Under the pieces are notes generated by a model that saw only the letters and a program-made list of their open reading frames with translations, was not told the DNA's origin and made no database searches. The translations under genes were made by a program, and so were the position numbers. A DNA stretch of 64,000 nucleotides from Gammaproteobacteria bacterium (GTDB taxonomy: Bacteria > Pseudomonadota > Gammaproteobacteria > Steroidobacterales > PWYM01). This document shows, piece after piece, positions 337-14,591 of this stretch. The stretch spans positions 19,859 to 83,858 of the forward strand of contig PWZL01000058.1 in the NCBI GenBank assembly GCA_003567475.1. Reading direction: 5' to 3'. Numbering within the stretch: the stretch's first letter is position 1; every line of letters starts with the position of its first letter.

Positions 337-891
337 ATGGACAGACGATGGTTTTTGGGTGGTCTCGCCGCTACTGCAGCGGCCGGCACCACAACACCGT
401 GGGCGTTAGCCCGCGCTGGCGCCACGCCCCACGATATCGAGGCAATCACCCGTATGCTGACACGTGACGGCGAGCTCCAACGGCTCGAACACAGGGCCGA
501 TTTCTGGCGACGCTATGTGGACGGGCTCGCCTGGGACGTGCTGTTCCGGGAGCGGACCGAGCGACCATTCACCAGCCCGCTGAACGACGAAACACGCACG
601 GGGACCTACGTCTGTGCCGCCTGTCACCTGCCGCTGTTCGAATCCACTACGAAGTACGACAGCGGCACAGGCTGGCCGAGTTTCTGGGCGGCGATCGAGG
701 CCCATATCGGAACGAAAAGAGACTTCAAGCTCATCATTCCACGAACCGAATACCATTGCCTGCGCTGCGGTGGACATCAGGGACATGTCTTCAATGATGG
801 GCCGCGCCCGACCGGCAAGCGCTGGTGCAACAACGGGGTCGCATTGCGCTTCGTACCCATGGACGAGGCACTACCGGAGTTGCGCGGATGA
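337..891 (+). CDS. msrB: Exported peptide-methionine (R)-S-oxide reductase MsrB
   Basis: Two CxxC zinc motifs (CAAC, CLRC), GTGWPSFW, HCLRCGGHQGHVF, RWCNNGVALRF catalytic Cys; N-terminal MDRRWFLGG Tat-like signal. Confidence 0.93.
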   Translation: MDRRWFLGGLAATAAAGTTTPWALARAGATPHDIEAITRMLTRDGELQRLEHRADFWRRYVDGLAWDVLFRERTERPFTSPLNDETRTGTYVCAACHLPLFESTTKYDSGTGWPSFWAAIEAHIGTKRDFKLIIPRTEYHCLRCGGHQGHVFNDGPRPTGKRWCNNGVALRFVPMDEALPELRG

Positions 892-1523
892 TCAGGGTGG
901 TGACACGGAAACGACTGACGATCACGCTCGGGGCGACGCTGGCCTTGCTGGTGGCGAGCGGCCTGATGAGGCCGGCCAGCACCGTGCAGGCCGACGAGAA
1001 TACGACCGCCAGCGCGATCTTCGCGGGAGGGTGTTTCTGGTGCATGGAGCCACCTTTCGATGAGCTGGACGGTGTAATCTCCACCACCTCAGGCTTCATC
1101 GGCGGGCACGTCTCCAACCCCAGCTATCAGCAGGTGGTCCGCGGCGGTACAGGCCATGTGGAGGCCGTCAAGGTGGTGTATGACCCTGCCGTGGTCGCTT
1201 ATGACAGGCTGCTGGAGGTGTTCTGGCGGAACGTCGATCCCGTGGATGACGGCGGGCAGTTCTGTGACCGAGGTGAGGCCTATCTGACGGGCATCTTCGT
1301 GGGCAGTGCTGAAGAACGGCGACTGGCCGAAGCCTCACGTGTAGCACTGGACGCATCCGGGCGTTTCGACCAGCCTGTCGTGACGCCGATTCGCGAACGC
1401 GGCACGTTTTATCCGGCCGAAGAGTACCACCAGAATTACTACCGAAAAAATCCCGTACGCTACCGGTTCTACCGTTTCAACTGCGGCCGTGACCGTCGCT
1501 TGACCGAACTGTGGGGCGACTAA
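888..1523 (+). CDS. msrA: Exported peptide-methionine (S)-S-oxide reductase MsrA
   Basis: AGGCFWCMEPPFDEL active site, GGHVSNPSYQQVVRGGTGHVEAVKVVYDP; hydrophobic N-terminus; ATG overlaps msrB stop (ATGA). Confidence 0.93.
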   Translation: MIRVVTRKRLTITLGATLALLVASGLMRPASTVQADENTTASAIFAGGCFWCMEPPFDELDGVISTTSGFIGGHVSNPSYQQVVRGGTGHVEAVKVVYDPAVVAYDRLLEVFWRNVDPVDDGGQFCDRGEAYLTGIFVGSAEERRLAEASRVALDASGRFDQPVVTPIRERGTFYPAEEYHQNYYRKNPVRYRFYRFNCGRDRRLTELWGD

Positions 1524-1535
1524 TACCGCCCCCCG

Positions 1536-2705
1536 TCAGAACCAGAACGAAAAGAACAACTGGAACACATTGGCTGAGAGGCTGTATGTCGGCTCATCAC
1601 CGGGCGACTCGGCATTCACCCGCAGATCGCGGAAATCACGGTAATCCGCCGTGATCCAGTCATAGGTGAAGTTGACCGCACCCCGTTCGAACATGGCCCA
1701 GCGAGCCGTGAACAGCTCGTAACTGACACCCATCCGCACCGAGTGGCTGTCGTAACGGCTGAGTTCCTTGTCCCGCGCGAGGAAGTTCTGCGCGCTGCGA
1801 AACGGATACAGGTCGCTCCAGAAATCCGCGGCCCCCTGGGTGTAATATCGATACTGCAGATCGAGAATCACGCGTGGCAGCGTGGCGTGGGTGTACCCGA
1901 CCCGGGTACTGTGAGCGTCGATGCCCCAGTCGTCGCTGAAATAGCGATACTCCGCGTGCACCGCAGCGCGATACGGCAGGTGGTAACGCGCACGCAAAGC
2001 CACCGCACTGCTGGTGCGGCGTCGAGGATAGACCTCAGCCTGGAATCCGTAACCACGACTCGACTCCGGGTCCAGGTAGCGCACCTGCCGGTAGGGGTTG
2101 TTCAGGAACCCCTTGTCGGTAATGGTCTCGAAGGCGAGTTCGGCCAGCATGTTGCGGGTGACGACCTGCGTCACACCCAGACGCCACGAGTGACGGTCCA
2201 GCTCCTCGCTGAACTCTGGATCACCACTGCGGCCGATTTCGTCCGAACCACGGACGTAACCCATGCTCAGGGTGGTCATCGCCGCAAAGACCTCCTGACT
2301 CACCCCGATATTGAACGAACGGCCCTTGTAATCATTCTCGTCACTCGCAACCACCCCGAGACTGAGCAGGGTATCGCCTCTCAGGTAATCCAGCGTGCCG
2401 GCAAGCTCCGTACGCTCCTCCCGATACGGGCTGGCCGTGGTGATCACATCGATCGAGGCACCTGAGATCGTATCGACATGGTATTTCCCCTGTACAGAGA
2501 AGCTTTCGCCGAGCTGCTTGCGCACCAGTACGGACGGACCCTCTACCGTGATACCACCGCCGTCATAGTAATGATAGAGAACGTCCATTCGCTCTTCAGG
2601 CAGTACCGCGGCAGGCGCGTCGCCCATAGCCCACAACGCGACCGTACCCAGGACACACGCGAGGGTCCTGGAGGCGGTGCACCTGGAGTTCACGGACCCG
2701 CTCAT
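1536..2705 (-). CDS. DUF3570 domain-containing protein (beta-rich outer membrane-like)
   Basis: Signal peptide followed by VLPEERMDVLYHYYDGGGITVEGPSVLVRK and many alternating aromatic strands, ends in aromatic SFWF; start taken at ATG 2705 just after the DUF4266 stop. Confidence 0.75.
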   Translation of the reverse strand: MSGSVNSRCTASRTLACVLGTVALWAMGDAPAAVLPEERMDVLYHYYDGGGITVEGPSVLVRKQLGESFSVQGKYHVDTISGASIDVITTASPYREERTELAGTLDYLRGDTLLSLGVVASDENDYKGRSFNIGVSQEVFAAMTTLSMGYVRGSDEIGRSGDPEFSEELDRHSWRLGVTQVVTRNMLAELAFETITDKGFLNNPYRQVRYLDPESSRGYGFQAEVYPRRRTSSAVALRARYHLPYRAAVHAEYRYFSDDWGIDAHSTRVGYTHATLPRVILDLQYRYYTQGAADFWSDLYPFRSAQNFLARDKELSRYDSHSVRMGVSYELFTARWAMFERGAVNFTYDWITADYRDFRDLRVNAESPGDEPTYSLSANVFQLFFSFWF

Positions 2706-2706
2706 G

Positions 2707-2943
2707 TCAGTTGCACCCACAGCCGCCACCGGATCCACCACTCGCGCCGCGCGCACCCTCGCGAATGTCATACAGCTTCTGCAGATAGGCTGCGGAGACC
2801 GGGTCACGCTCGAAACTCATGATCGGATCCGCCAGACGGTCTCGCTCGTAGGGCTGAACCCACGGCTGGACCCCCGAGCACGCACTCACCGACGCCAGCA
2901 TGCCCAACACGATGAGACACCGAATGAGCCTGGCCATGATCAA
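2707..2943 (-). CDS. DUF4266 domain-containing small lipoprotein, C-terminal GGGCGCN
   Basis: MARLIRCLIVLGMLASVSAC lipobox, VQPYERDRLADPIMSF, C-terminal GGSGGGCGCN; ATG overlaps upstream TlpA-like stop. Confidence 0.8.
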   Translation of the reverse strand: MIMARLIRCLIVLGMLASVSACSGVQPWVQPYERDRLADPIMSFERDPVSAAYLQKLYDIREGARGASGGSGGGCGCN

Positions 2944-3465
2944 CGCTCCCGAACCAGCGCGCGGACCGCATCCTGGTATTTCTGCTCATCCCCCGGCTTG
3001 TAACCGAAGAAGTGATCGCGCAGCTGACCCTGACGATCGACCAGAATCGTGGTTGGCATCGCCGCCACTCCGTACAGGGCGCCCACTTCCTCCTTCGTGT
3101 CGAGCAGAATCGGAAAAGTCACCGGCACCTCGGCAAGGAAGCGGTCGATCAGCCGGTTCTCCTGCTCCACGTTGACGCCGAGCAGGCTAAACCCCAGTCG
3201 CTGGAAACGCTGATGAATCTGGTCAAGCAGCGGCATTTCCTGGCGGCAGGGCGGACACCAGGTCGCCCAGAAATTGATCATGACGACGTCGCCGCGCAGG
3301 TCGCTGAGGCTGAGACTGCCGCCCCCGCGCACGGGCAGCGTGAAGTCCGGCGCAGGGCCGCTCTGCGCGGCGCGTGCCAATGCCGCAGACATCGGTGTCG
3401 CGGCGAGCGGTGCCGTGGCGAGCATGGCGCACAGCATGCGGCGATCGAGATGGGCGTTGTGAGTC
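2940..3465 (-). CDS. TlpA-family thioredoxin-like protein disulfide reductase
   Basis: NFWATWCPPCRQEMPLLDQ active site, GVNVEQENRL, AMPTTILVDRQG; N-terminal signal; ORF track extends to 3515, start choice uncertain. Confidence 0.88.
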
Positions 3466-3511
3466 ATCATCGCTCCCTGGAAATCAAGCCTGAATTCACG
3501 CTCCAGCCAAC

Positions 3512-4180
3512 TCAAAAGAACCAGCCGAGCCCGATCACGAACTCAATGTTGTGAACCGTCTTGTCCTCACCCAGGAGATCGGTTCTGAACACGTGGTCGC
3601 GCACCATCAGGTGGGCTGACAGCCAGTCGTTCAACAGTACGCGGTAGCCGGCCCCGAAAGTAATGGTGAAGCGGCTGTCACCTGCAAAATCAGTGCTGCC
3701 GGCGCCGAGCAACAGATAAAGTGAAGAGGTGAACGCGCGATTTCGTCCGATGAACGTCTCGCCAGGAAACAGGTTGTAACCCAGCGACAGGTCGTAGTAC
3801 CGGAACGTGCGCTCGTCGGACGGGAGCAGGTCGACGGCCCCGCTAAGCGTCTCGAAGCTGGTCCGCCCGGCGGTGGTCTGGCCGATGGTCGCCTCGGCAA
3901 AAAGCCCTTCGGTAATGTGATAGGCCAGTCGCCCGCCGTACACGGTGCTGCTGCCGAAATCTTCCACACTGAGGAATCCGGTATAGGCCCCGAGTTCGAA
4001 GTTTTCGGTATCTATCCGAGGCCGTCGGACTTCACGACGTTCCACGCGGGGATCGATCACCGGTTCCGCTGAACTGGGCTCGTCAAGCGTATCCATCACG
4101 CGGCTGCAGCCGCTCGTCAACACGGCCAGAAAGAGCGCCACTGCCGCATTCAGAAAAAGAAACCGAAGCCCGCTTTCCAT
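3512..4180 (-). CDS. Outer membrane beta-barrel domain lipoprotein
   Basis: Start at MESGLRFLFLNAAVALFLAVLTSGCS lipobox; C-terminal barrel-like strands ending IEFVIGLGWFF; overlaps both neighbours. Confidence 0.7.
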   Translation of the reverse strand: MESGLRFLFLNAAVALFLAVLTSGCSRVMDTLDEPSSAEPVIDPRVERREVRRPRIDTENFELGAYTGFLSVEDFGSSTVYGGRLAYHITEGLFAEATIGQTTAGRTSFETLSGAVDLLPSDERTFRYYDLSLGYNLFPGETFIGRNRAFTSSLYLLLGAGSTDFAGDSRFTITFGAGYRVLLNDWLSAHLMVRDHVFRTDLLGEDKTVHNIEFVIGLGWFF

Positions 4181-4941
4181 TCGTTGACGTCCTCGTTTTC
4201 GTCGCGGCTGGTAAACACCACGTATCGCCGATACTCGGCCCGCAGCATGAAATTCCGACTCACGTGCATGCGCAACCCAAGGCCCGCATGCCCGATCTGA
4301 TCCGTACGGTTTTCCACGTCGACCAGAGTCGCGCGGGGTTCTATACGGATCACCCCTGTCCCCAAGGCCAGGAATGGTGACACTCGCCATTCCGGCCAAG
4401 GCTGGTGCACGAGATTGACTCCCGCTAGCCAGCCGCTGGAAAACCGGCCGTTGAGATCTGAAGCGCTCAACTCCAGCGACAGGTTCCTCGTCGCATGCCA
4501 GGCGAAATAGGCGGACAGAACATCTGCGCCGCTGAAATCGCCGAGCATCACTCCACCCTCAGTACGCCGCTCGAGATAGTCGAGGCGACTCGGTGGCGCA
4601 ATACTCACCGGCTCTCCCGAAGGCAATACGGTCCGACTGATCTGGGCGCGACTTGCCCAGCCTTCCACCCCACCCGCCGTGCGCACCCGGAACCAGTCCG
4701 TACGCCGACTCAGGATCTCGATCTGCTCACCACGCTCGGCGATGTGGAATCTCGGATACCCTCTTCCAGGGCCGCTATGCAGTTCCAGAAACGGCTCGGA
4801 CACTTCGACCACATAGTGCGCCTCGCGCGCCTGCACCGGTGTGACGAAGTGCAAGAAAATGGCAGCGCCGATGAGCATCAGTCGAAGAGCTTGGACGGCG
4901 TTCACGTTCACGATGAAGTCAGTCCTCTGCCGGCGCGTCAA
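4150..4941 (-). CDS. SH3 domain plus outer membrane beta-barrel protein
   Basis: Signal peptide, then SH3-like YVVEVSEPFLELHSGPGRGYPRFHIAERGEQIEILSRRTDWFRVRTAGGVEGWA, then barrel strands ending WKAGFGFFF. Confidence 0.75.
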   Translation of the reverse strand: MTRRQRTDFIVNVNAVQALRLMLIGAAIFLHFVTPVQAREAHYVVEVSEPFLELHSGPGRGYPRFHIAERGEQIEILSRRTDWFRVRTAGGVEGWASRAQISRTVLPSGEPVSIAPPSRLDYLERRTEGGVMLGDFSGADVLSAYFAWHATRNLSLELSASDLNGRFSSGWLAGVNLVHQPWPEWRVSPFLALGTGVIRIEPRATLVDVENRTDQIGHAGLGLRMHVSRNFMLRAEYRRYVVFTSRDENEDVNEWKAGFGFFF

Positions 4942-7624
4942 AGGGGTTGTTGAAGTATTGACCGCCGATGTCCAACCACTCGGCCACCAGACGAAGCTCA
5001 GCGGGACTCAGCCAGCCCGCGTGTCCCGCCCCGGGGGCGAAAGCAGCGAAAAACCGCCCGGAAGCACGCGCGCCGGCGGCGCTCATCGAGGGCTGGACCG
5101 CAACGGTGTCCAGAATAGGCTCACCCGTCTCTTCATCGACGACCGGCAGGCCCGTAGCAGGGTCGAGCCGCTCGACCAGGCGGATCTGCAGGGCGCCCTC
5201 GACCAGCTCAAGCTGGACGTCGGGGAACAACAGTTCGCGATACGAGCGCACCTGCAAGGCCTGCGCGGGAGAGGGATCCCCCGTCAATTCAAGCTGTGCC
5301 TCCGGCAGCTGGGTCACGCCCATTGCATCGCTGCGGGAGTGACAGCTGGTACATGTCCGATCGATCAGGACGGTGATGCCATCGTCATCGAGTATCTGGC
5401 GGTCCAGCTCCCATAGGGGCTGGATGTGCGTCTCGTAGTTGATCACCGTCCGGCAGCCTGCAGTCCATCGCTGCATGCAGGCTTCGCTCACCGGTGCAAG
5501 CGTCTCGAGGTCCTCATAGCGCCACGCAATCGAGGCGTCGGGTTCACGACCCGCCGCCACCGGATCGGTCCAGATGTCTTCGTAGAGCACATCGACACTC
5601 GGTCGGATCGCCGCGCAGTCCTCCACGCCGCAGCTGATGCGGGCCTTGACCTCGGCCATGGTTTCGCCGAAATCGGCGAACAGTGCGCTCTGGGTATTCG
5701 GAAACGGGATACTCGAGGAGGCCGCGCCCGCCCACGCGCTATCGAAGGCATCCAAGCGCCCATGGGACAGACCACTCCCAGGCTGGTGGCAGCCATTACA
5801 GCTCAGGGTCTGCCCTGGCCGCACCTGCAACCAGTTCTGGTGGCGCGCGCGCACCCGCTGTCCTGCGCGGTCGAGTACCGAGAGTGACAGCGGGACATCA
5901 GCCGGCACCGCCACCACCACAGAGCCATCCGGCTCGATGGGCGCATAGCCGATGATCTCGCGCATGCCACTGCGGGCTCCACCCCGGCCGAAGGCCACGC
6001 CCCGATTGAAATCGCGAACGTCATCATCCGGAATCGATACCGCCTTGAGCACGCGAAGCCAGGCCACGGGGCGGTCGGCGAAACTGGTCTGCGCCGGATC
6101 CGCGAGCGCCTCGATACCCACGCCCGACATGTCTTCGCCGAGCACGTCGTGGACGCTTCGAATGTTCAGCAACCCCAGGCCCTGCTCAGCCAGTCGGCTA
6201 TCCGCTTGTCCGCTGGCGAGCTGGTCGAAAATGATGCCGGGCAAGGGCCTGGGCTGCATCGCCACGACCTCCGAGTAGACGACGCCTTCCTGGGGCAACA
6301 GTACCGGGAGCTGCGTATCCGCGCGACGGTCGTAAATCCAGATCCCATACAGGGGTGGCGCCGGCACTGCCGCCGGATCTTCCAGACGCTCCGGGGTACA
6401 CGGCACGATACGGTCGTTGTCCATCAGCCGGCACTGACTCCAGCTCACGAACATCCGATCGGTGCCATCTTCCAGTGGCCAGGCTGCGCTGTATTGCCCC
6501 CCCGGCGACAACCCCACCCCGGGCGTCACGACACTCGCGGTCGCGGGCTGCTGCGCCGGGCCGCTCAGCACTCCGGCATTGGCGGCAGTCGGTTGGGTGT
6601 TCTCGACGTAGTTGTCCACATCGATCAGGACCAGGTCGCCACCGAGGTAACTGACCTGGAAAGGCTGAGCCAAGGCCAGTATGCGTCCATCCGGCATCTC
6701 ACGCGGCTTCAGGAAATGGACGTCAATGCCATCTTGTCCAGTGCCGCGACTGTTTTTGCCGTAGAGCAGTTCAAGCCCGGTACCGTCCGGGTTCATCCGA
6801 TAAAGACTGATCTCGTTACGGGAACCGAAGCGGTCCCAGCGACTGAATACCACCTGGCCACTGGAGAGGACACTGGGCGAGAGGTCATGGCTCTGATTGA
6901 ACGACACCTGGCGTATTTCGCTGCCGTCTTCGTTCATCACATGCAGTACGAACGCCGGCTCGTTGAAATTCTCGTCTAGTGCATCGAACTGCGGTTTGCC
7001 CTCGTCGAGCAGCATGGCCTTGCCGCCACGCTGCCGGGTGGAGGTGAAGATGATTCGGCCATCGGGAAGGTAATGTGGCGCCAGATCATGGCCGAGTTCC
7101 GCGGTCAGCTCCGAGGTGATGATTCGGCGCAACCGCTCATCGATGCGGTGATATTCCCAGATATTCCAGGTCGGCTGATCCTCCGGGTCAGCCCCCTCGA
7201 TGAAGGGTCCGCGCATCGAAAACAGCAGTCGCTCTCCGTCCCAGGAGACACTGACATCGCGGATGTCGTACATGCCCTCGGTCAGGGCCCCGGTGACATT
7301 GATCTCAGGGGCCGAGGGTGAGGCCCTTTCCCGAATGATCAGATCTGCGCCCAGCTCGAAGCGATCCAGCAGCCGTCGCGCATCGGTGGTCCCCAACATG
7401 CCCTGATCACCTGCCGGTACGGGACGCTGAACGTAGGCGATCGGAACATCCACGACCACCGGGTCTGGCCCTTGTCCGCCGGCAAGTCCGATACCGTCTT
7501 CCCCGCCGCAAGCCGCGAGTAGCAGCACTGCAGTGAGTGCGGGCAGCGTCATCACGGTATTGCGGCTCACCACCCGCTTGGTCATCGAGTCACCCGGCAT
7601 CGGTTTCATCGCGTGCATCCTCAT
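4919..7624 (-). CDS. HzsA-like PD40/beta-propeller lipoprotein with two c-type heme motifs
   Basis: Lipobox LLLAACGGEDG; WD40-like repeats (VSWDGERLLFSMRG, LPDGRIIFTSTRQRGGKAMLLDEGKPQ, VLSSGQVVFSRWD); CNGCH and CTSCH motifs with YETHIQPLWELDR upstream of the second. Start at 7624 behind AAGGAAC. Confidence 0.75.
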   Translation of the reverse strand: MRMHAMKPMPGDSMTKRVVSRNTVMTLPALTAVLLLAACGGEDGIGLAGGQGPDPVVVDVPIAYVQRPVPAGDQGMLGTTDARRLLDRFELGADLIIRERASPSAPEINVTGALTEGMYDIRDVSVSWDGERLLFSMRGPFIEGADPEDQPTWNIWEYHRIDERLRRIITSELTAELGHDLAPHYLPDGRIIFTSTRQRGGKAMLLDEGKPQFDALDENFNEPAFVLHVMNEDGSEIRQVSFNQSHDLSPSVLSSGQVVFSRWDRFGSRNEISLYRMNPDGTGLELLYGKNSRGTGQDGIDVHFLKPREMPDGRILALAQPFQVSYLGGDLVLIDVDNYVENTQPTAANAGVLSGPAQQPATASVVTPGVGLSPGGQYSAAWPLEDGTDRMFVSWSQCRLMDNDRIVPCTPERLEDPAAVPAPPLYGIWIYDRRADTQLPVLLPQEGVVYSEVVAMQPRPLPGIIFDQLASGQADSRLAEQGLGLLNIRSVHDVLGEDMSGVGIEALADPAQTSFADRPVAWLRVLKAVSIPDDDVRDFNRGVAFGRGGARSGMREIIGYAPIEPDGSVVVAVPADVPLSLSVLDRAGQRVRARHQNWLQVRPGQTLSCNGCHQPGSGLSHGRLDAFDSAWAGAASSSIPFPNTQSALFADFGETMAEVKARISCGVEDCAAIRPSVDVLYEDIWTDPVAAGREPDASIAWRYEDLETLAPVSEACMQRWTAGCRTVINYETHIQPLWELDRQILDDDGITVLIDRTCTSCHSRSDAMGVTQLPEAQLELTGDPSPAQALQVRSYRELLFPDVQLELVEGALQIRLVERLDPATGLPVVDEETGEPILDTVAVQPSMSAAGARASGRFFAAFAPGAGHAGWLSPAELRLVAEWLDIGGQYFNNPFDAPAED

Positions 7625-7818
7625 CGTTCCTTCAGTTATCGACCGCTGCGTCGACCACTGAAGTCTGAACCGCAGAAAACACACCAGACAGCGACTGTTT
7701 TACTTAACCCCATGGCAGTCTGCAAAAACGTTAACGCAGTCACAGAACAACAAGTAGCGGACTTTGCCTAATGATCACCAGCGTGTGGCACGCCCTATTC
7801 GACACGAGGTGACTCGAC

Positions 7819-9027
7819 GTGACAGCTGGCATGAACAACCTCCGGATCACGACCCTATGCCCAAGTGGCAGGCTGTCAGCGGCCGTATTGGCATTGGGGC
7901 TGTATCTCGCACTCGCCATGATCATGCAGGCGTTCGCGACCCCTCGCGATGAAGCACGTCGCATTCATGACCGGCTCGCGGGGGTACCCCCCTCCGCTGC
8001 AGTGCTCGACCAGATGACCAGCCTGGTCAGCAACGGCGATGCGATCGGTGCGGCTTACCTCGCGATGGAAAACCGCGCGTTCTATGACGTCACACTGAAA
8101 AACTGGGCGGCACCCTGGACGAACCGTGAAGAAGATGTGTTCGTCCCGCTGAACGACTACATCGCGACGGTGATCGGCATGGTGCGCGACGATGTACCGT
8201 TCAACCAGCTGCTCTCGGCTGACATGGTCTATGTCGGACGTGACGGACTTTCGGGCATACCCGCCTATTCGATGACCAGCAATGCGCACTACGAAGAGCT
8301 GGAGCGTCGAAATATCAACCTGATGGAGAATCTGGAACAGCGACGCCAGTCGGCGATGACGGATCTGCCACCAGACGCCACCGCAGGGGTCATGACCACC
8401 CGTGCCGCAGCAGAGGCGTTTTTCGTCGCCGGCACCAACCGGGCGATGCTGCGATTTACGCTCATGGCGCATATGTGCCGGGACCTGGAGCAGCTGGCCG
8501 ACACGACCCGCTCACCTGACCGGATTCGGCAAGACGTTTCGCGCAGCCCAGGTGGCGACAGCCGGTTATTCCTGAACAACTGCGTGAGCTGCCATACCGG
8601 CATGGACCCGCTGGCTCAGGCCTACGCCTATTACGACTGGGACGAGAGCGCGCGGCGCATCGTCTACACCAGTGGACAGGTCAGACCTAAATACTTCAAC
8701 AATGCCGACACATTCCCCTTCGGCTTTGTCACCACCGACGCCAGCTGGGCAAACTACTGGCGCGAGGGACAGAACGCGCTGCTCGGTTGGGACCCGGGTC
8801 GTCCGGGGGAGGGCTACGGCGCCAAGTCCATGGGTGAGGAGCTCGCCAACAGCCAGGCATTTGCACAATGCCAGGTCGAGAAAGTTTTCCGTACCGTCTG
8901 CCTGCGCACGCCCACCGATGCAGCAGATCGTCAGCAGGTTGCCAGCATGGTAACAAGCTTCCGCGGCGGCAATTACCGCATGCGCCAGGTGTTTGCCGAA
9001 TCGGCAGCCTACTGCCGCGCCGACTGA
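7819..9027 (+). CDS. Exported c-type cytochrome-like protein with one CxxCH motif
   Basis: GTG start after GAGGTG; N-terminal hydrophobic segment; LFLNNCVSCHTGMDPLAQAYAYYDWDES heme motif. Confidence 0.65.
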   Translation: MTAGMNNLRITTLCPSGRLSAAVLALGLYLALAMIMQAFATPRDEARRIHDRLAGVPPSAAVLDQMTSLVSNGDAIGAAYLAMENRAFYDVTLKNWAAPWTNREEDVFVPLNDYIATVIGMVRDDVPFNQLLSADMVYVGRDGLSGIPAYSMTSNAHYEELERRNINLMENLEQRRQSAMTDLPPDATAGVMTTRAAAEAFFVAGTNRAMLRFTLMAHMCRDLEQLADTTRSPDRIRQDVSRSPGGDSRLFLNNCVSCHTGMDPLAQAYAYYDWDESARRIVYTSGQVRPKYFNNADTFPFGFVTTDASWANYWREGQNALLGWDPGRPGEGYGAKSMGEELANSQAFAQCQVEKVFRTVCLRTPTDAADRQQVASMVTSFRGGNYRMRQVFAESAAYCRAD

Positions 9028-9049
9028 GCTGGAAAGAGGACAGGCCGCC

Positions 9050-11503
9050 ATGAACATGATGAGCCGTACACCGCGTCTGCGGATCGCCGCAGTCGGCGCC
9101 ACGCTCGCGTTACTCGCCGCCTGCGGCAGCGACGTGGAGACCCAGAGCAACCCGATCGTCGCGCCCCCTGGCAGTGGTGGCTACTCCGGGCCGCCGCCTG
9201 CCACCGCTGAGGTCCAGGCGTTCCGCACCCACCTGTGGGAAAACGTCAACACGCTGAACACCTGTGGAAACTGTCACGGCACAGGCGGCACGCTGCCGAC
9301 TTTCGCCCGCACGGATGACGTCAACCTCGCCTATCAGGATGTCGGCGGGCTGGTCAACCTGACTTCCCCTGGCGACTCGGTGCTGGTGAGCATGGTGGCC
9401 AACGGTCACAACTGCTGGCTGGAAAGCACCCAGGCGTGTGCCGATATCATGACGACCTGGATCGGTAACTGGTCGGGCGGCGACGGTAACCAGGGTCGCG
9501 AAATCGAGCTTGTCCCCCCAGTCCAGAGAACGGTGGCTGACAGCCGGGTACTGCCCGCGGACCCTGGCGCATTCCAGACCACGGTTTTCCCCCTGCTGCG
9601 CGACTTCTGTGCAGACTGTCACAGCGGCTCGGTCGCGAATGGCGTCGCGCCGTTCTTCGCCGACGGCGATGTCATCACCGCTTACAACGCCGCCCGGAGC
9701 CGCATCAATCTCGATTCACCGGGGATTTCGCGCTTCGTCGTCCGCGTGGGCGACGAGTTCCACAACTGCTGGAGCGGTGATTGCCGCGATGACGGTCAGG
9801 CCCTGGAGGATGCTATCGCGGCAATGGCGGCGATGGTTCCAGTGACTCAGATCGATCCATCACTGGTGGTCAGCATGGCGCTTGGCCTTCCTGACGGCAT
9901 CGTCGCTGCCGGCGGCAATCGCTATGAGGCAGCCCAGATTGGCTTCTGGGAATTCAAGGAAGGCCGTGGAAACCGCGCCTTCGACACCAGCGGCGTTCAG
10001 CCCGCACTCGACCTCACGCTGAGCGGTGATTTCGATTGGTTCGGCGGCTGGGGCATTGATCTTCGCGGCGGCAAGGCACAGGGCAGCGTCGCCGCGAGTC
10101 GCAAGCTCTACGACCTGATACGCGCCACCGGAGAATACTCGATCGAGGCCTGGGTGGTCCCGGGGAACGTAAACCAGGAAGAAGTCCCCATCGTCAGCTA
10201 TTCGGCTGGCGCCATGGCCCGGAATTTCACGCTCGGACAGACCATGTACAACTACGATTTCCTTAATCGGAGTGACACCACCGACGTCAACGGGATGCCG
10301 GCTCTGTCCACCCGTGACGCCGATGAGATCCTGCAGGCCACCCTGCAGCACGTTGTTGTCACCTTCGATCCGGTGGGCGGTCGGCAGATCTACGTCAACG
10401 GCAACCTTGTGGTCATGACTGACCCCAGTGGTGGCGGCAGCCTGAATGACTGGGACGACAGTTTCGCGTTCGTGCTCGGGAATGAGCCCTCCGGTGATGC
10501 CCCCTGGGAGGGTGTATTGCGCCTGGTGGCGATTCACAATCGTGCGCTGACGCCTGAACAGATCGACCAGAACATCGAAGCCGGTGTAGGTGAAAAATTC
10601 TTCCTGCTGTTCAACGTGAGCGAGCATGTCGGTCAGGCCGACAGCTATATCCTGATCGAGGTCAGCCAGTTCGACAGTTACGCCTACCTGTTCGCCGAGC
10701 CGCGGTTCATCGTGCTCGGCAGCGAGTCCGCCCCCGCAGGAGTCCCGTTACAGGGACTGCGTATCGGGATCAACGGCGGGGTCGGCAGCGTGGGTCAGGC
10801 ATTTGCCAAGCTGGACCTGCAACTCGGGGGTATGGACTATACGGCGGGCGTGGGACAGTTGCTCTCGCCGCAGGCGGCGGTCATCGGCTTGGAGGCCGGA
10901 CCGGAGATCGATGAGTTCTTCCTTAGCTTCGAACGCCTTGGCTCCAGCACGAATTTCATCGTCGAGCCGACCCCTCAGCCCCCAGCTATCGTCGACGGGA
11001 CACCCTCCTCACGAATCGGGATCCGCACCTTCGATCGCGTCAACGCGACCATGTCCGCAGTGACCGGCATTCCGCAGACGACCGGCGACATCCAGGACAC
11101 CTTCAGCCTGGTACGCCAGCAACTGCCCTCGATCGATGCCATCGATACCTTCGTATCGGCCCACCAGATCGGAGTCACACAGCTGGCGATCGAATATTGC
11201 AACACGCTGCTGGAGGATCAAACCCGCCGTAGCGCTTACTTCCCGGGTTTCGATTTCTCAGCGAGCCCGGCGACCGCACTGGCTGGCAACGGGCGCAATC
11301 TACTGATTGATCCGCTGATCTCCCGTATGGTCGGGCTAGGGCTCGAACAGCAGCCAAGTGCCACAGAGATTCGTGGCGAGCTCAACGCACTGATCGACCG
11401 ACTCGACAACTGCGGCGGCAGCTGCCCGGCAGATCGCACCGTGGTGATCGGCAAGGCCACTTGCGCGGCTGTCCTCGGCAGCGCAGCCGTGCTGGTTCAC
11501 TGA
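9050..11503 (+). CDS. Multidomain lipoprotein: two CxxCH motifs plus LamG/concanavalin-like domain
   Basis: Lipobox LALLAACGSD; NTCGNCHGTGG and DFCADCHSGS; LamG-like GEYSIEAWVVPGN...ILQATLQHVVVTFDPVGGRQIYVNGNLV...FVLGNEP...WEGVLRLVAIHNRALTPEQI. Confidence 0.75.
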   Translation: MNMMSRTPRLRIAAVGATLALLAACGSDVETQSNPIVAPPGSGGYSGPPPATAEVQAFRTHLWENVNTLNTCGNCHGTGGTLPTFARTDDVNLAYQDVGGLVNLTSPGDSVLVSMVANGHNCWLESTQACADIMTTWIGNWSGGDGNQGREIELVPPVQRTVADSRVLPADPGAFQTTVFPLLRDFCADCHSGSVANGVAPFFADGDVITAYNAARSRINLDSPGISRFVVRVGDEFHNCWSGDCRDDGQALEDAIAAMAAMVPVTQIDPSLVVSMALGLPDGIVAAGGNRYEAAQIGFWEFKEGRGNRAFDTSGVQPALDLTLSGDFDWFGGWGIDLRGGKAQGSVAASRKLYDLIRATGEYSIEAWVVPGNVNQEEVPIVSYSAGAMARNFTLGQTMYNYDFLNRSDTTDVNGMPALSTRDADEILQATLQHVVVTFDPVGGRQIYVNGNLVVMTDPSGGGSLNDWDDSFAFVLGNEPSGDAPWEGVLRLVAIHNRALTPEQIDQNIEAGVGEKFFLLFNVSEHVGQADSYILIEVSQFDSYAYLFAEPRFIVLGSESAPAGVPLQGLRIGINGGVGSVGQAFAKLDLQLGGMDYTAGVGQLLSPQAAVIGLEAGPEIDEFFLSFERLGSSTNFIVEPTPQPPAIVDGTPSSRIGIRTFDRVNATMSAVTGIPQTTGDIQDTFSLVRQQLPSIDAIDTFVSAHQIGVTQLAIEYCNTLLEDQTRRSAYFPGFDFSASPATALAGNGRNLLIDPLISRMVGLGLEQQPSATEIRGELNALIDRLDNCGGSCPADRTVVIGKATCAAVLGSAAVLVH

Positions 11504-11539
11504 CATCCAATTCATTGACGTATCGCACGAGGCAAGCCC

Positions 11540-13135
11540 ATGACTAGGCGAAGCAGGCACAGCAACGACTGGTACGCGCCACTGCGACACCCGGATCATC
11601 CCAGGCCGATCACTCGTCGACAGCTGATCGCGCAGGGTTTCATGACGGGCGCAGCCACCATCGCAGGCGCCGGGCTGTTTGGTCTGTTCGCCAACCCCAG
11701 GGCGGCCTGGGCGCAGTTGTCGCCCGATCTGCAGTCGCTCACCGAAAGCTGCGGTATCGCGGTGCAGGGTGCCGGCAAGATCCCCTTCATCTGCTTCGAT
11801 CTCGCGGGCGGCGCCAATATGGTCGGCTCGAATGTCCTCGGTGGTCGCCAGGGCGGGCAGCTGGACTTCATCAGCACGCAGGGCTACAGCCGCCAAGGCC
11901 TGCCAGGCGATATGGTGCCCCGGCTGAACGATCCGCTGACGGGTGCTGCATTCATCGACGATCGACTGGGGTTGGCTTTCCACTCGGACAGCGCGTTTTT
12001 GCGCGGCATCGTCGACAAGCTCTCGGCCAGTCGCTTTGACAACGTCAATGGAGCCTTGATTCCGGCCCGCTCGGAAAACGACACCGGCAACAACCCGCAC
12101 AACCCACTTTACGGCATCCATCGTGCAGGGGCGGACGGATCGCTGCTCACCCTGATCGGCTCGAGGCCGACCGACTCCGGCGGCAACTCGCTTGCCCCGA
12201 TGGCAATGATCAACTCCGAGGTTCGCCCGACCAAGGTCGACCGGCCGACCGACGTCACCGGCCTGGTGGATACCGGCAAGCTCATCGGCTTGCTCGACCA
12301 GGACGACGCCGTGGCGGTGATGGAGTCGATCTACCGACTGAGTGACCGCAAGCTCAACCGCGTCGATACCGGTCTGATCACACGTGATGCCGTGATCAAG
12401 GATCTGGTGCGTTGCGGGTACCTGCGTTCAGCAGATATCGCAGACCGCTTCGGCGATCCGTCTTCGCTCAATCCCGCGCTTGACCCGGACATCGTCGGTC
12501 CCAGCGGGATTTTCAGCGAACAGGAATTCAACAGCGATGGCGAATTCCGGAAGACGGCATCGGTCATGAAACTGGTCATGAACGGCTTCGCCGGCGCCGG
12601 CTGCATCACTATGGGTGGCTATGACTACCATGGCGGCAGACGCGCACTTGGTGAAGTTCGCGACCTACGCGCAGGACGTTGCATGGGTGCGTGCCTCGAG
12701 TATGCCGCACGCCTGAATGTGCCCTTGATGATGTATGTCTTCAGTGACGGCTCGCTCTCCAGCAATGGCGTCATCGACAACTCCGAGCAGGGTCGCGGAA
12801 AGGGGGAGTGGACCAGCGACAACCAGTCCACGGCCGCCTCATTTTTCCTGGTCTACAATCCGGGGGGCAGGCCCCAGCTGCTGGGCGCCACGCCGGAGCA
12901 GCAGGCCAGACACCAGCAGATTGGCTGGTTCAGGCCCGACGGCTCGGTGGAAACCGCGTCGAGCCCTGCCGCAAACAATGTCAACCAGCTGGTCGAACTC
13001 ACGGTCCTCAACTACCTGGCGTTGCACGGCGAGCAGGCAAGCTTCCCCAGTCTGTTCCCCGGCCATGGGCTCGGCAGCCCGACCCTCCGTGACCAGCTGA
13101 CCGCCTTCCAGCCTATCGTCAACGGCACGATCTGA
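11540..13135 (+). CDS. DUF1501-like protein with Tat-type signal
   Basis: ITRRQLIAQGFMTGAATIAGAGLFG twin-arginine leader; C-terminal MGGYDYHGGRRALGEVRDLRAG...MMYVFSDGSLSSNG...GRGKGEWTSDNQ. Confidence 0.65.
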   Translation: MTRRSRHSNDWYAPLRHPDHPRPITRRQLIAQGFMTGAATIAGAGLFGLFANPRAAWAQLSPDLQSLTESCGIAVQGAGKIPFICFDLAGGANMVGSNVLGGRQGGQLDFISTQGYSRQGLPGDMVPRLNDPLTGAAFIDDRLGLAFHSDSAFLRGIVDKLSASRFDNVNGALIPARSENDTGNNPHNPLYGIHRAGADGSLLTLIGSRPTDSGGNSLAPMAMINSEVRPTKVDRPTDVTGLVDTGKLIGLLDQDDAVAVMESIYRLSDRKLNRVDTGLITRDAVIKDLVRCGYLRSADIADRFGDPSSLNPALDPDIVGPSGIFSEQEFNSDGEFRKTASVMKLVMNGFAGAGCITMGGYDYHGGRRALGEVRDLRAGRCMGACLEYAARLNVPLMMYVFSDGSLSSNGVIDNSEQGRGKGEWTSDNQSTAASFFLVYNPGGRPQLLGATPEQQARHQQIGWFRPDGSVETASSPAANNVNQLVELTVLNYLALHGEQASFPSLFPGHGLGSPTLRDQLTAFQPIVNGTI

Positions 13136-13208: not shown

Positions 13209-14591
13209 ATGGCGGGCATGAACGCGACACCAAGCCTGCCTCTGGATCTGCTCGCCTGTCCGCGCACAGGCGAACAGCTGCGCCATCACCCTCAGGGACT
13301 GACCAACCAGGGCGGCCAGGTGGTCTTTCCGCTGCTCGATGGCGTCCCTGCGCTGTTTGCCGAGCCGGTCGCGACTCTTGGCGAGTGGCGGGACCGCCTG
13401 GAACTGCTGCTGGTGCAGCTGGGGCAACATGCGCAACGACTCGAGCAGAACGTTGAGGCCCCCGATCTCGGTGCGCTGGGACGAGCGCGCGTCGAACGCC
13501 TGCACGCGGCGACGGTCGACCATCGGGACCGACTGACTGCTCTGCTGGCGCCATTGGCGCTGCCCCGGCGCAATACGGCGACGGAGACGCACCTCGCCCT
13601 GCGGACACGTCTGCCTCCGGAAGCCTCGCTGGTCGGCTATTACGCCAACATCCACCGTGACTGGGTATGGGGCGAGACGGAGAACGCGGCCAGCCTGGAT
13701 CTGCTGGCGCAGGTGGCCGCAGACTGTCCACTCGGCCGGACCCTGGTGATCGGTGCGGGCGCGGGGCGACTGGCGTGGGACGTGCACCAGACCCTGGCTC
13801 CCGAGACCACGCTCGCACTCGATTTCAACCCCATGCTCATGCTCCTCCTTGCCCGCCTGGTCCGGGGTGAGAGCATCGACCTGTACGAGTTTCCGCTGGC
13901 GCCCAGGCGCCGCGAGGACCAGGCCCTGCTGCGACACCTCGCCGCACCGCAACCGACCCGTCCGGGATTCCACGCGATCATGGGAGACGCGCTGCGACCT
14001 CCCTGCGCCTACGGCGCTTTCGATACGGTGATCACGCCGTGGGTCATCGATATCCTGCCGGAAGATCCGCGACTGCAGATGGCCCGGATCAACAACCTGC
14101 TCGCGCCGGGCGGTCAATGGCTGAACTTCGGATCGCTGAACTTCAACTTCGCAGATCCCAGACTGGCATTCTCACTGGAAGAGACTCTGGAGCTGGTGGA
14201 ACACCATGGCTTCGGGCCGCCCAAGCTCACCGAAACCGAGTTGCCGTACATGTGCTCGCCTGCAAGCCGCCATGGGCGGCGCGAGCAAGTGGTTGCCTTC
14301 GGCGCCCGCAAGCGCGAAGAGGTCGACGCCCCGCCCCGACACAAGGCACTGCCGGACTGGCTGGTCACCGGCCGAGGTGCAGTACCGGCCCTGCCTGCTT
14401 TTCGCCAGCAGGCGCTGGCCTCCAGGATCCACGTGTTCATGCTGGAGCTGATCGATGGCCGACGCAGCCTCAAGGAGATGGCAGGCATTCTCGAACAACA
14501 GAAGCTGATGACGCAGGCCGAGGCCGAGGACTCGTTGCGGAATTTCCTGATCCGCCTGTACCAGGACAGTCAGCACGGAAGAAGCTACTGA
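13209..14591 (+). CDS. SAM-dependent methyltransferase (N2227/carnosine N-methyltransferase-like) with Trm112-like N-terminus
   Basis: LDLLACPRTGEQL...GGQVVFPLLDGVPALF N-terminus; LVIGAGAGRLAWDVH SAM motif; DTVITPWVIDILPED; KLTETELPYMCSPAS. Confidence 0.65.
   Translation: MAGMNATPSLPLDLLACPRTGEQLRHHPQGLTNQGGQVVFPLLDGVPALFAEPVATLGEWRDRLELLLVQLGQHAQRLEQNVEAPDLGALGRARVERLHAATVDHRDRLTALLAPLALPRRNTATETHLALRTRLPPEASLVGYYANIHRDWVWGETENAASLDLLAQVAADCPLGRTLVIGAGAGRLAWDVHQTLAPETTLALDFNPMLMLLLARLVRGESIDLYEFPLAPRRREDQALLRHLAAPQPTRPGFHAIMGDALRPPCAYGAFDTVITPWVIDILPEDPRLQMARINNLLAPGGQWLNFGSLNFNFADPRLAFSLEETLELVEHHGFGPPKLTETELPYMCSPASRHGRREQVVAFGARKREEVDAPPRHKALPDWLVTGRGAVPALPAFRQQALASRIHVFMLELIDGRRSLKEMAGILEQQKLMTQAEAEDSLRNFLIRLYQDSQHGRSY

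Follow-up and report, generated by a model that had tools for sequence, protein, structure and literature searches.

A conserved divergent redox locus of Gammaproteobacteria and its Glt/Agl-type envelope core

The 64,000-nucleotide stretch of a gammaproteobacterial genome analyzed here (the window) carries two divergent runs of genes for exported heme, thiol and outer-membrane proteins, and it raises the question of whether these nine genes form one system and what such a system would do. The leftward arm comprises six genes, from DUF3570 to an HzsA-like gene (1536-7624), the rightward arm comprises three (7819-13135), and both arms start from one common gap. Our comparisons suggest, with a probability of roughly 0.6, that the nine genes encode the outer-membrane and periplasmic redox half of an envelope machine that is coupled to the proton-motive force (PMF) and contains an electron relay, while the other half is a Glt/Agl-type core. 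The flavinylation module within the locus and the Glt/Agl core are each known, and what appears to be new, judging from the gene neighborhoods, is their joining in a single conserved locus comprising about 20 genes. No paper connecting Glt/Agl with flavinylation or with HzsA-like genes was found in the open literature, where our coverage is incomplete and an unseen publication is possible.

Conservation of the divergent order

Conservation was followed in three sets of genomes, most of which are metagenome-assembled genomes (MAGs): 59 genomes of the same genus and order as the window genome, a named genome collection in which at least 538 relatives carry the HzsA-like protein and 80 named loci were analyzed, and a sample of 185 Gammaproteobacteria genomes drawn evenly across the class. 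The 80 named loci all bear proteobacterial names, mostly of Gammaproteobacteria with one MAG labeled Rhodospirillaceae, and their taxa include Thiodiazotropha, Sedimenticola, Woeseia, Steroidobacter, Aliiglaciecola, tubeworm symbionts and others. The closest among the named loci listed belongs to the MAG DLM2.Bin61 (91% identity).

The conserved order reads DUF3570-DUF4266-TlpA-OMP1-SH3 barrel-HzsA-like, facing cytochrome-LamG-twin-arginine (Tat) protein. This complete divergent order was kept in 48 of the 48 named loci with enough DNA on both flanks, and the whole order was visible in 61 of the 80, with TlpA present in 44 of those 61. Among the 59 genomes of the genus and order, the HzsA-like protein was found in 34, with the same divergent order where similarity was full, and in the class-wide sample the Tat protein was present in 23 of the 26 genomes having the HzsA-like protein. 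The nine-gene order is not due to chance and represents a fixed set across many Gammaproteobacteria. The original prediction had read both arms as a single system, and the neighborhood comparison strongly supports this, as the two arms stay together across the class. The shared gap (7625-7818) holds the blocks GTTTTACTTAA, AAACGTTAAC and GTCACAGAA in an alignment of three same-genus genomes and is a candidate divergent control region.

A variant architecture (L027-L035), with one same-genus genome (G002) among its carriers, encodes a longer HzsA-like protein of about 1000 residues with a third CxxCH, together with an extra CX4CH protein (cytochrome). Since these loci are contiguous with the Glt/Agl-type core yet lack the right arm, the latter is a replaceable attachment, and what stays constant is the core together with the DUF3570 module and the pair of barrels. 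A plasmid search with the HzsA-like protein returned distant matches only, which argues against a mobile-element origin.

A Glt/Agl-type core as the probable second half

In many relatives, the DNA past DUF3570, or past the Tat protein at the opposite end, carries the gene string apbE-tlpA2-D190-gltC-D-E-x158-aglR-Q-S-tonB, where tlpA2 is a second tlpA gene. The nine-gene set is contiguous with this string in L050, L051/L071, L055, L056, L057 and L043, in addition to the variants L027-L035, and D190 and GltC were found in one locus in 33 of the 80 named loci. The core parts are a TolQ-like channel protein (AglR-like, related to TolQ/ExbB in a PDB search), two ExbD-like subunits (AglQ/AglS-like), a TonB/PglI-tail protein (GltG-like), three TPR proteins (GltC/D/E-like, in that order), a conserved 190-residue protein (D190), the short protein x158 and a dedicated ApbE. 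The TonB-like protein matched the AgmX/PglI C-terminal model NF033768 with 66.9 bits (cut-off 40) and GltG with 43 bits, and the TPR proteins reached only 43 bits with the GltE model (cut-off 225). The AglS-like subunit keeps the transmembrane Asp, SLMDIFTILVFFLLVN, and this one retained set of channel Asp residues would be compatible with a working proton channel. Luciano et al. (2011, PMC3169522) described a seven-gene core of GltC, D, E, G and AglR, Q, S that is clustered in Gammaproteobacteria along with one additional gene that Myxococcales lack, and that had no known function there; Wartel et al. (2013, PMC3858216) called this core stand-alone in many Gammaproteobacteria. By its predicted domains, the composition of the second half matches this published core. 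The ApbE of the redox-linked core repeatedly has a YSC84/SYLF-domain protein as its neighbor, at times with an M48 peptidase as well (L045:4002-6808, L027, L031, L083, L112 and L163).

The TolQ/ExbD/TonB-type parts would also suit a TonB-like reductive uptake system, in which the motor opens one of the barrels and a metal or metal complex is reduced by the flavin/heme chain and then imported, and some DUF3570 clusters elsewhere do occur with the ferrous iron transporter VIT1 (PMC8238504). However, neither a TonB-dependent receptor plug, nor a metal ABC transporter, nor VIT1 recurs in the compared loci, and the three TPR proteins of the core exceed what TonB uptake needs, making reductive uptake an unlikely explanation.

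Co-occurrence ties the core to the nine genes. In the class-wide sample, the HzsA-like protein was found in 26 genomes, D190 in 41 and both in 25, such that D190 was present in 25 of the 26 genomes with the HzsA-like protein versus 16 of the 159 without it (Fisher p 4e-19, a value that ignores phylogeny). In the lone exception, G091, the HzsA-like reading frame has just 630 codons. Where the two genes occur together, they mostly share a contig and lie within 25 kb of each other. The core half of the window genome was found on a separate contig, C46 (L045:7570-16921, L064:2-1396 and L174). In a D190 tree, within which branch support is often weak, this detached core pairs as sister (95/97) with that of the same-genus L035, which is contiguous. 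Five stand-alone cores without redox neighbors group together (support 96/76, not among the starred branches). From these two placements, the core of the window genome seems to have become detached recently, and the redox-linked core seems to form a lineage of its own. The stand-alone cores are L157-L161 (G143, G076, G078, G009:C33 and G194:C13), and some genomes hold both types.

The location of the Glt-type core on another contig is what a chance neighborhood, or a pair of unrelated operons, might predict for the window genome. This explanation is refuted by the full divergent order in all 48 loci and by the very strong co-occurrence with the core, and we consider it scarcely credible. Based on the gene neighborhoods, the nine genes and the Glt/Agl-type core very probably constitute one system.

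Flavin, thiol and heme parts of the nine-gene locus

The family labels in the window derive from Pfam and NCBIfam profile searches. Three genes at the far end of the leftward arm (all on the minus strand) lie adjacent to each other and encode a DUF3570 outer-membrane beta-barrel of a divergent, Glt-linked subfamily (1536-2705; PF12094, E 1.9e-43), a DUF4266 lipoprotein with lipobox Cys22 and a C-terminal GGGCGCN (CxC) tail (2707-2943; PF14086, E 2.4e-21), and a TlpA/ResA-like exported thioredoxin with a WCPPC motif (2940-3470 or 2940-3515; AhpC-TSA, E 5.5e-29; ResA subfamily, 3.7e-32). In DUF4266, the lipobox Cys and both tail Cys residues are invariant among 17 sequences. Together with ApbE, and with DsbD, these proteins make up a published flavinylation module (Meheust et al. 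2021, PMC8238504), in which covalent attachment of flavin mononucleotide (FMN) by ApbE was shown for the DUF3570 protein of Chlorobium luteolum only. The co-occurrence of DUF4266, DUF3570 and TlpA genes elsewhere, suggested in the original prediction, is therefore real and in part already published. ApbE is not encoded in the window; in many relatives it lies beside DUF3570 or D190, and an orthologous copy is located on C46 next to the core. It was present in 28 of the 28 genomes tested, and DsbD is present in the window genome.

The predicted FMN acceptors of DUF3570, S84 (SGAS) and S92 (TTAS), are located in the loop that joins strands 3 and 4, align with the published acceptor sites, and are kept in 95 and 96 of 97 homologues, respectively. 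An AlphaFold2 model (mean predicted local distance difference test score [pLDDT] 86.5) displayed 16 long strands forming a 16-strand barrel, with the acceptor loop (residues 83-93) on the long-loop side; if the N-terminus is periplasmic, this loop would face outward or be folded into the pore. The invariant residues R311-D312-K313 and N203-P204-Y205-R206 are positioned in other long loops of the model and could hold the flavin phosphate. A fold search with the model retrieved generic porin-like barrels only (PelB, FadL, Occ and OmpG), none of them specific. In G113 (L173), neither TlpA nor DUF4266 was found in the cluster, and DUF3570 has lost its first acceptor site (RGLP), a single natural case that is consistent with a shared thiol/flavin role.

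The thiol parts may alternatively serve envelope repair, whereby TlpA, DUF4266 and MsrA/MsrB maintain the reduced state of the outer-membrane proteins and oxidants are scavenged by the hemes. In line with this, TlpA is DsbE/ResA-like, and exported MsrB and MsrA (337-1523, plus strand) adjoin the cluster in the window genus. Yet the Msr genes are rare among the 80 named loci (MsrA in 4, MsrB in one), TlpA is absent from a whole clade that keeps everything else, and the motor is left unexplained, so that a repair function is improbable. MsrB and MsrA, doubtful members of the cluster and seldom near it elsewhere, were rejected as core members, their linkage to the cluster not being conserved outside the genus.

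The barrel pair follows in the leftward arm, with OMP1, a TIGR04565 outer-membrane beta-barrel with a lipobox-like N-terminus (3512-4180; 158 bits, cut-off 60), and a protein combining an SH3 domain with a C-terminal beta-barrel (4150-4941; SH3_3, E 5.6e-10; OMP_b-brl, 7.4e-7), whose TIGR04565 match (2.4e-9) is under the 60-bit NCBIfam cut-off. The arm ends with the HzsA-like lipoprotein (4919-7624; PF18582, E 3.7e-16), which comprises a propeller, an HZS_alpha middle domain with CNGCH and a C-terminal CTSCH. Its alignment to the HzsA chain of 5c2v (E 1e-19) follows the same order of propeller, middle heme domain and C-terminal heme domain, with both heme domains aligned; unlike HzsA, the window protein is a predicted lipoprotein and a heme-ligand Tyr is missing. 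Specifically, its motif reads CNGCHQPGSG, and the Tyr four residues after the His of the heme I CxxCH is absent in 18 of 18 homologues. In HzsA, this position corresponds to the last Tyr of CSGCHYGSY, which is reported to be the heme ligand in the published structure. Hydrazine synthesis is not expected in its absence. A hydrazine synthase, or another anammox-type nitrogen enzyme, would account for the HZS_alpha domain, the domain order and the heme positions, but given the missing Tyr and a score of 49 bits against the NCBIfam equivalog cut-off of 800, this identity was rejected and such an enzyme can be practically discounted. The earlier label "HzsA-like" thus holds as domain homology and not as a hydrazine synthase.

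The rightward arm (plus strand) begins with an exported mono-heme protein (7819-9027) bearing an invariant CVSCH. It resembles the C-terminal part of the PSD proteins among the planctomycete-type PSCyt/PSD (DUF1588/DUF1585) cytochromes, but is short and carries one heme, and its Pfam scores are weak and sub-threshold (PSD2 in 11 of 12 members, PSCyt3 in 8 of 12). It is followed by a LamG lipoprotein with two invariant CxxCH motifs (8993-11503, likely start ATG 9050; Laminin_G_3, E 3.6e-20) and by the Tat-exported protein of 531 residues (11540-13135), which displays 69% mean column identity and no Pfam match. In a fold search with its AlphaFold2 model, of moderate quality (pLDDT 71.5), all matches listed were alkaline-phosphatase-superfamily-like but weak (best E 6e-3, TM score about 0.2), and the protein possibly adopts an alkaline-phosphatase-like fold. 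PDB searches with the three right-arm proteins gave nothing useful. A methyltransferase downstream of the right arm (13209-14591, plus strand) is a doubtful member that lies near the cluster in 21 of the 80 named loci, and shows weak CARME and PqqD-like matches.

The reading frames, the shared gap, the leaders and the leftward junctions (overlaps at 4919/4941, 4150/4180 and 2940/2943; a 1-nt gap at 2705/2707) agree with their earlier description. So does the count of five CxxCH motifs over three proteins plus one thioredoxin (2 + 1 + 2 in the HzsA-like, mono-heme and LamG proteins), and all five motifs are invariant in alignments of homologues. Among the family labels first proposed, DUF3570, DUF4266, TlpA, the barrels, HzsA-like (by its HZS_alpha domain) and LamG stand, the cytochrome has weak DUF1585/DUF1588 matches only, and the DUF1501 label for the Tat protein fails, as 0 of 26 family members match Pfam DUF1501 even at E<=10.

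Both the LamG domain, which is lectin-like, and the Tat protein hint that the substrate is a polymer. They could also be parts of a surface polymer machine resembling Myxococcus Agl-Nfs, in which the motor moves or wraps a polysaccharide, LamG binds it, the redox proteins oxidize, cross-link or trim it, and the Tat protein removes its sulfate or phosphate groups. Agl-Nfs carries spore-coat polymer, and the gammaproteobacterial core has been proposed as a basal transport machine (PMC3858216); the LamG and SH3 domains, as well as the weak alkaline-phosphatase superfamily fold matches, would fit such a role. Nevertheless, glycosyltransferase or polymer export genes do not recur in the compared loci, and the most constant partners of the locus are thiol and flavin parts for which a polymer mover has no obvious need. 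A polymer machine is possible, but we would not expect it.

A proposed PMF-coupled redox machine and its relation to known systems

The reading as a PMF-coupled envelope machine with an electron relay builds on features that can be read from the sequences, namely the gene set, its order, contiguity and co-occurrence, the invariant heme, thiol and flavin-acceptor residues, and the Asp of the AglS-like subunit. From these we infer a direction of electron flow, a kind of substrate and a coupling to the motor. ApbE would attach FMN to DUF3570 in the periplasm, ahead of its insertion as a barrel. Electrons would enter from DsbD and move via TlpA and the C-terminal CxC of DUF4266 to flavins lying in the pore of DUF3570. 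From there they would reach the c-type hemes of the surface lipoproteins (HzsA-like, LamG and PSD-like) and act on a substrate at the cell surface or outside the cell. Through the TonB- and TPR-type linkers, the PMF-powered motor would drive, gate or position the outer-membrane part. The proposed route from thiol to flavin to heme is plausible, at somewhat less than even odds. More tentatively, and with considerable doubt on our side, the motor may gate or move the flavin-loaded barrel as it passes reducing power over the outer membrane to the surface cytochromes, thus acting as a PMF-energized electron-transfer machine. The exported heme/thiol machine of periplasm and outer membrane put forward in the original prediction fits the parts, but it covered only half of the system and missed the flavin side.

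Several observations weigh against the proposed machine. The two halves lie on different contigs in the window genome. TlpA is not indispensable, because it is missing from the clusters of a Woeseia-type clade (L058, L061-L063, L086, L089 and others) in which all other parts are kept, and the existence of a stand-alone core clade indicates that the motor does not need the redox genes. The acceptor motif of DUF3570 is mostly SSAS and not SGAS, as the Gly of [S/T]GA[S/T] at site 1 was found in only 16 of the 97 homologues (15 SGAS and 1 TGAS) and is otherwise usually replaced by Ser or Thr; acceptance by ApbE is thus a prediction. In most redox-linked members, including the window genome (L045:16397-16921), the AglQ-like subunit has an Asn, AFMNLMVVLVPFLL, at the usual transmembrane Asp position of ExbD, with Asp instead in L071 and L154. 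An FHA domain was not found in the GltG-like protein, where Pfam identified only TonB_C, and the protein is therefore GltG-like and not a GltG of the M. xanthus type. The designation "Glt/Agl-type" itself was assigned from the cited papers, from domain models and from gene composition and order.

The gammaproteobacterial Glt/Agl core has been without a known function since 2011 and the DUF3570/DUF4266 clusters without a known role since 2021, and each now provides a handle on the other, giving a function-unknown relative of the Myxococcus gliding motor a testable redox job. The proposal predicts FMN on the barrel and a surface redox activity that depends on the proton channel of the motor, and the locus is present in workable organisms such as Aliiglaciecola and Steroidobacter isolates. 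If true, this would make it an extracellular redox system with mechanical coupling, in contrast to Mtr-type conduits, and a PMF-energized redox machine may predate the gliding machine.

Compared with known systems, the locus shares with the published flavinylation clusters (PMC8238504) the four-part module (with its ApbE on C46 in the window genome), the C-terminal CxC of DUF4266, the serines at the acceptor positions of DUF3570 and a DsbD in the genome. The DUF3570 proteins of Gammaproteobacteria nevertheless fall into two sets. The canonical copies (L166-L170 and L172) score 200-430 bits and occur in Trx-DUF4266-DUF3570-ApbE clusters, once with DsbD, without the barrel pair, the HzsA-like protein or the motor, whereas copies of the window type reach about 80-155 bits per segment and are linked with two additional barrels, with cytochromes and with the Glt/Agl-type core. 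With the published Glt/Agl core (PMC3169522, PMC3858216), the second half shares a TolQ-like protein, two ExbD-like proteins, a TonB/PglI tail and three TPR proteins in one cluster. It differs from the published stand-alone core in that its GltG-like protein is devoid of FHA and in that the core is combined with TIGR04565 barrels and a module of flavin, thiol and heme parts.

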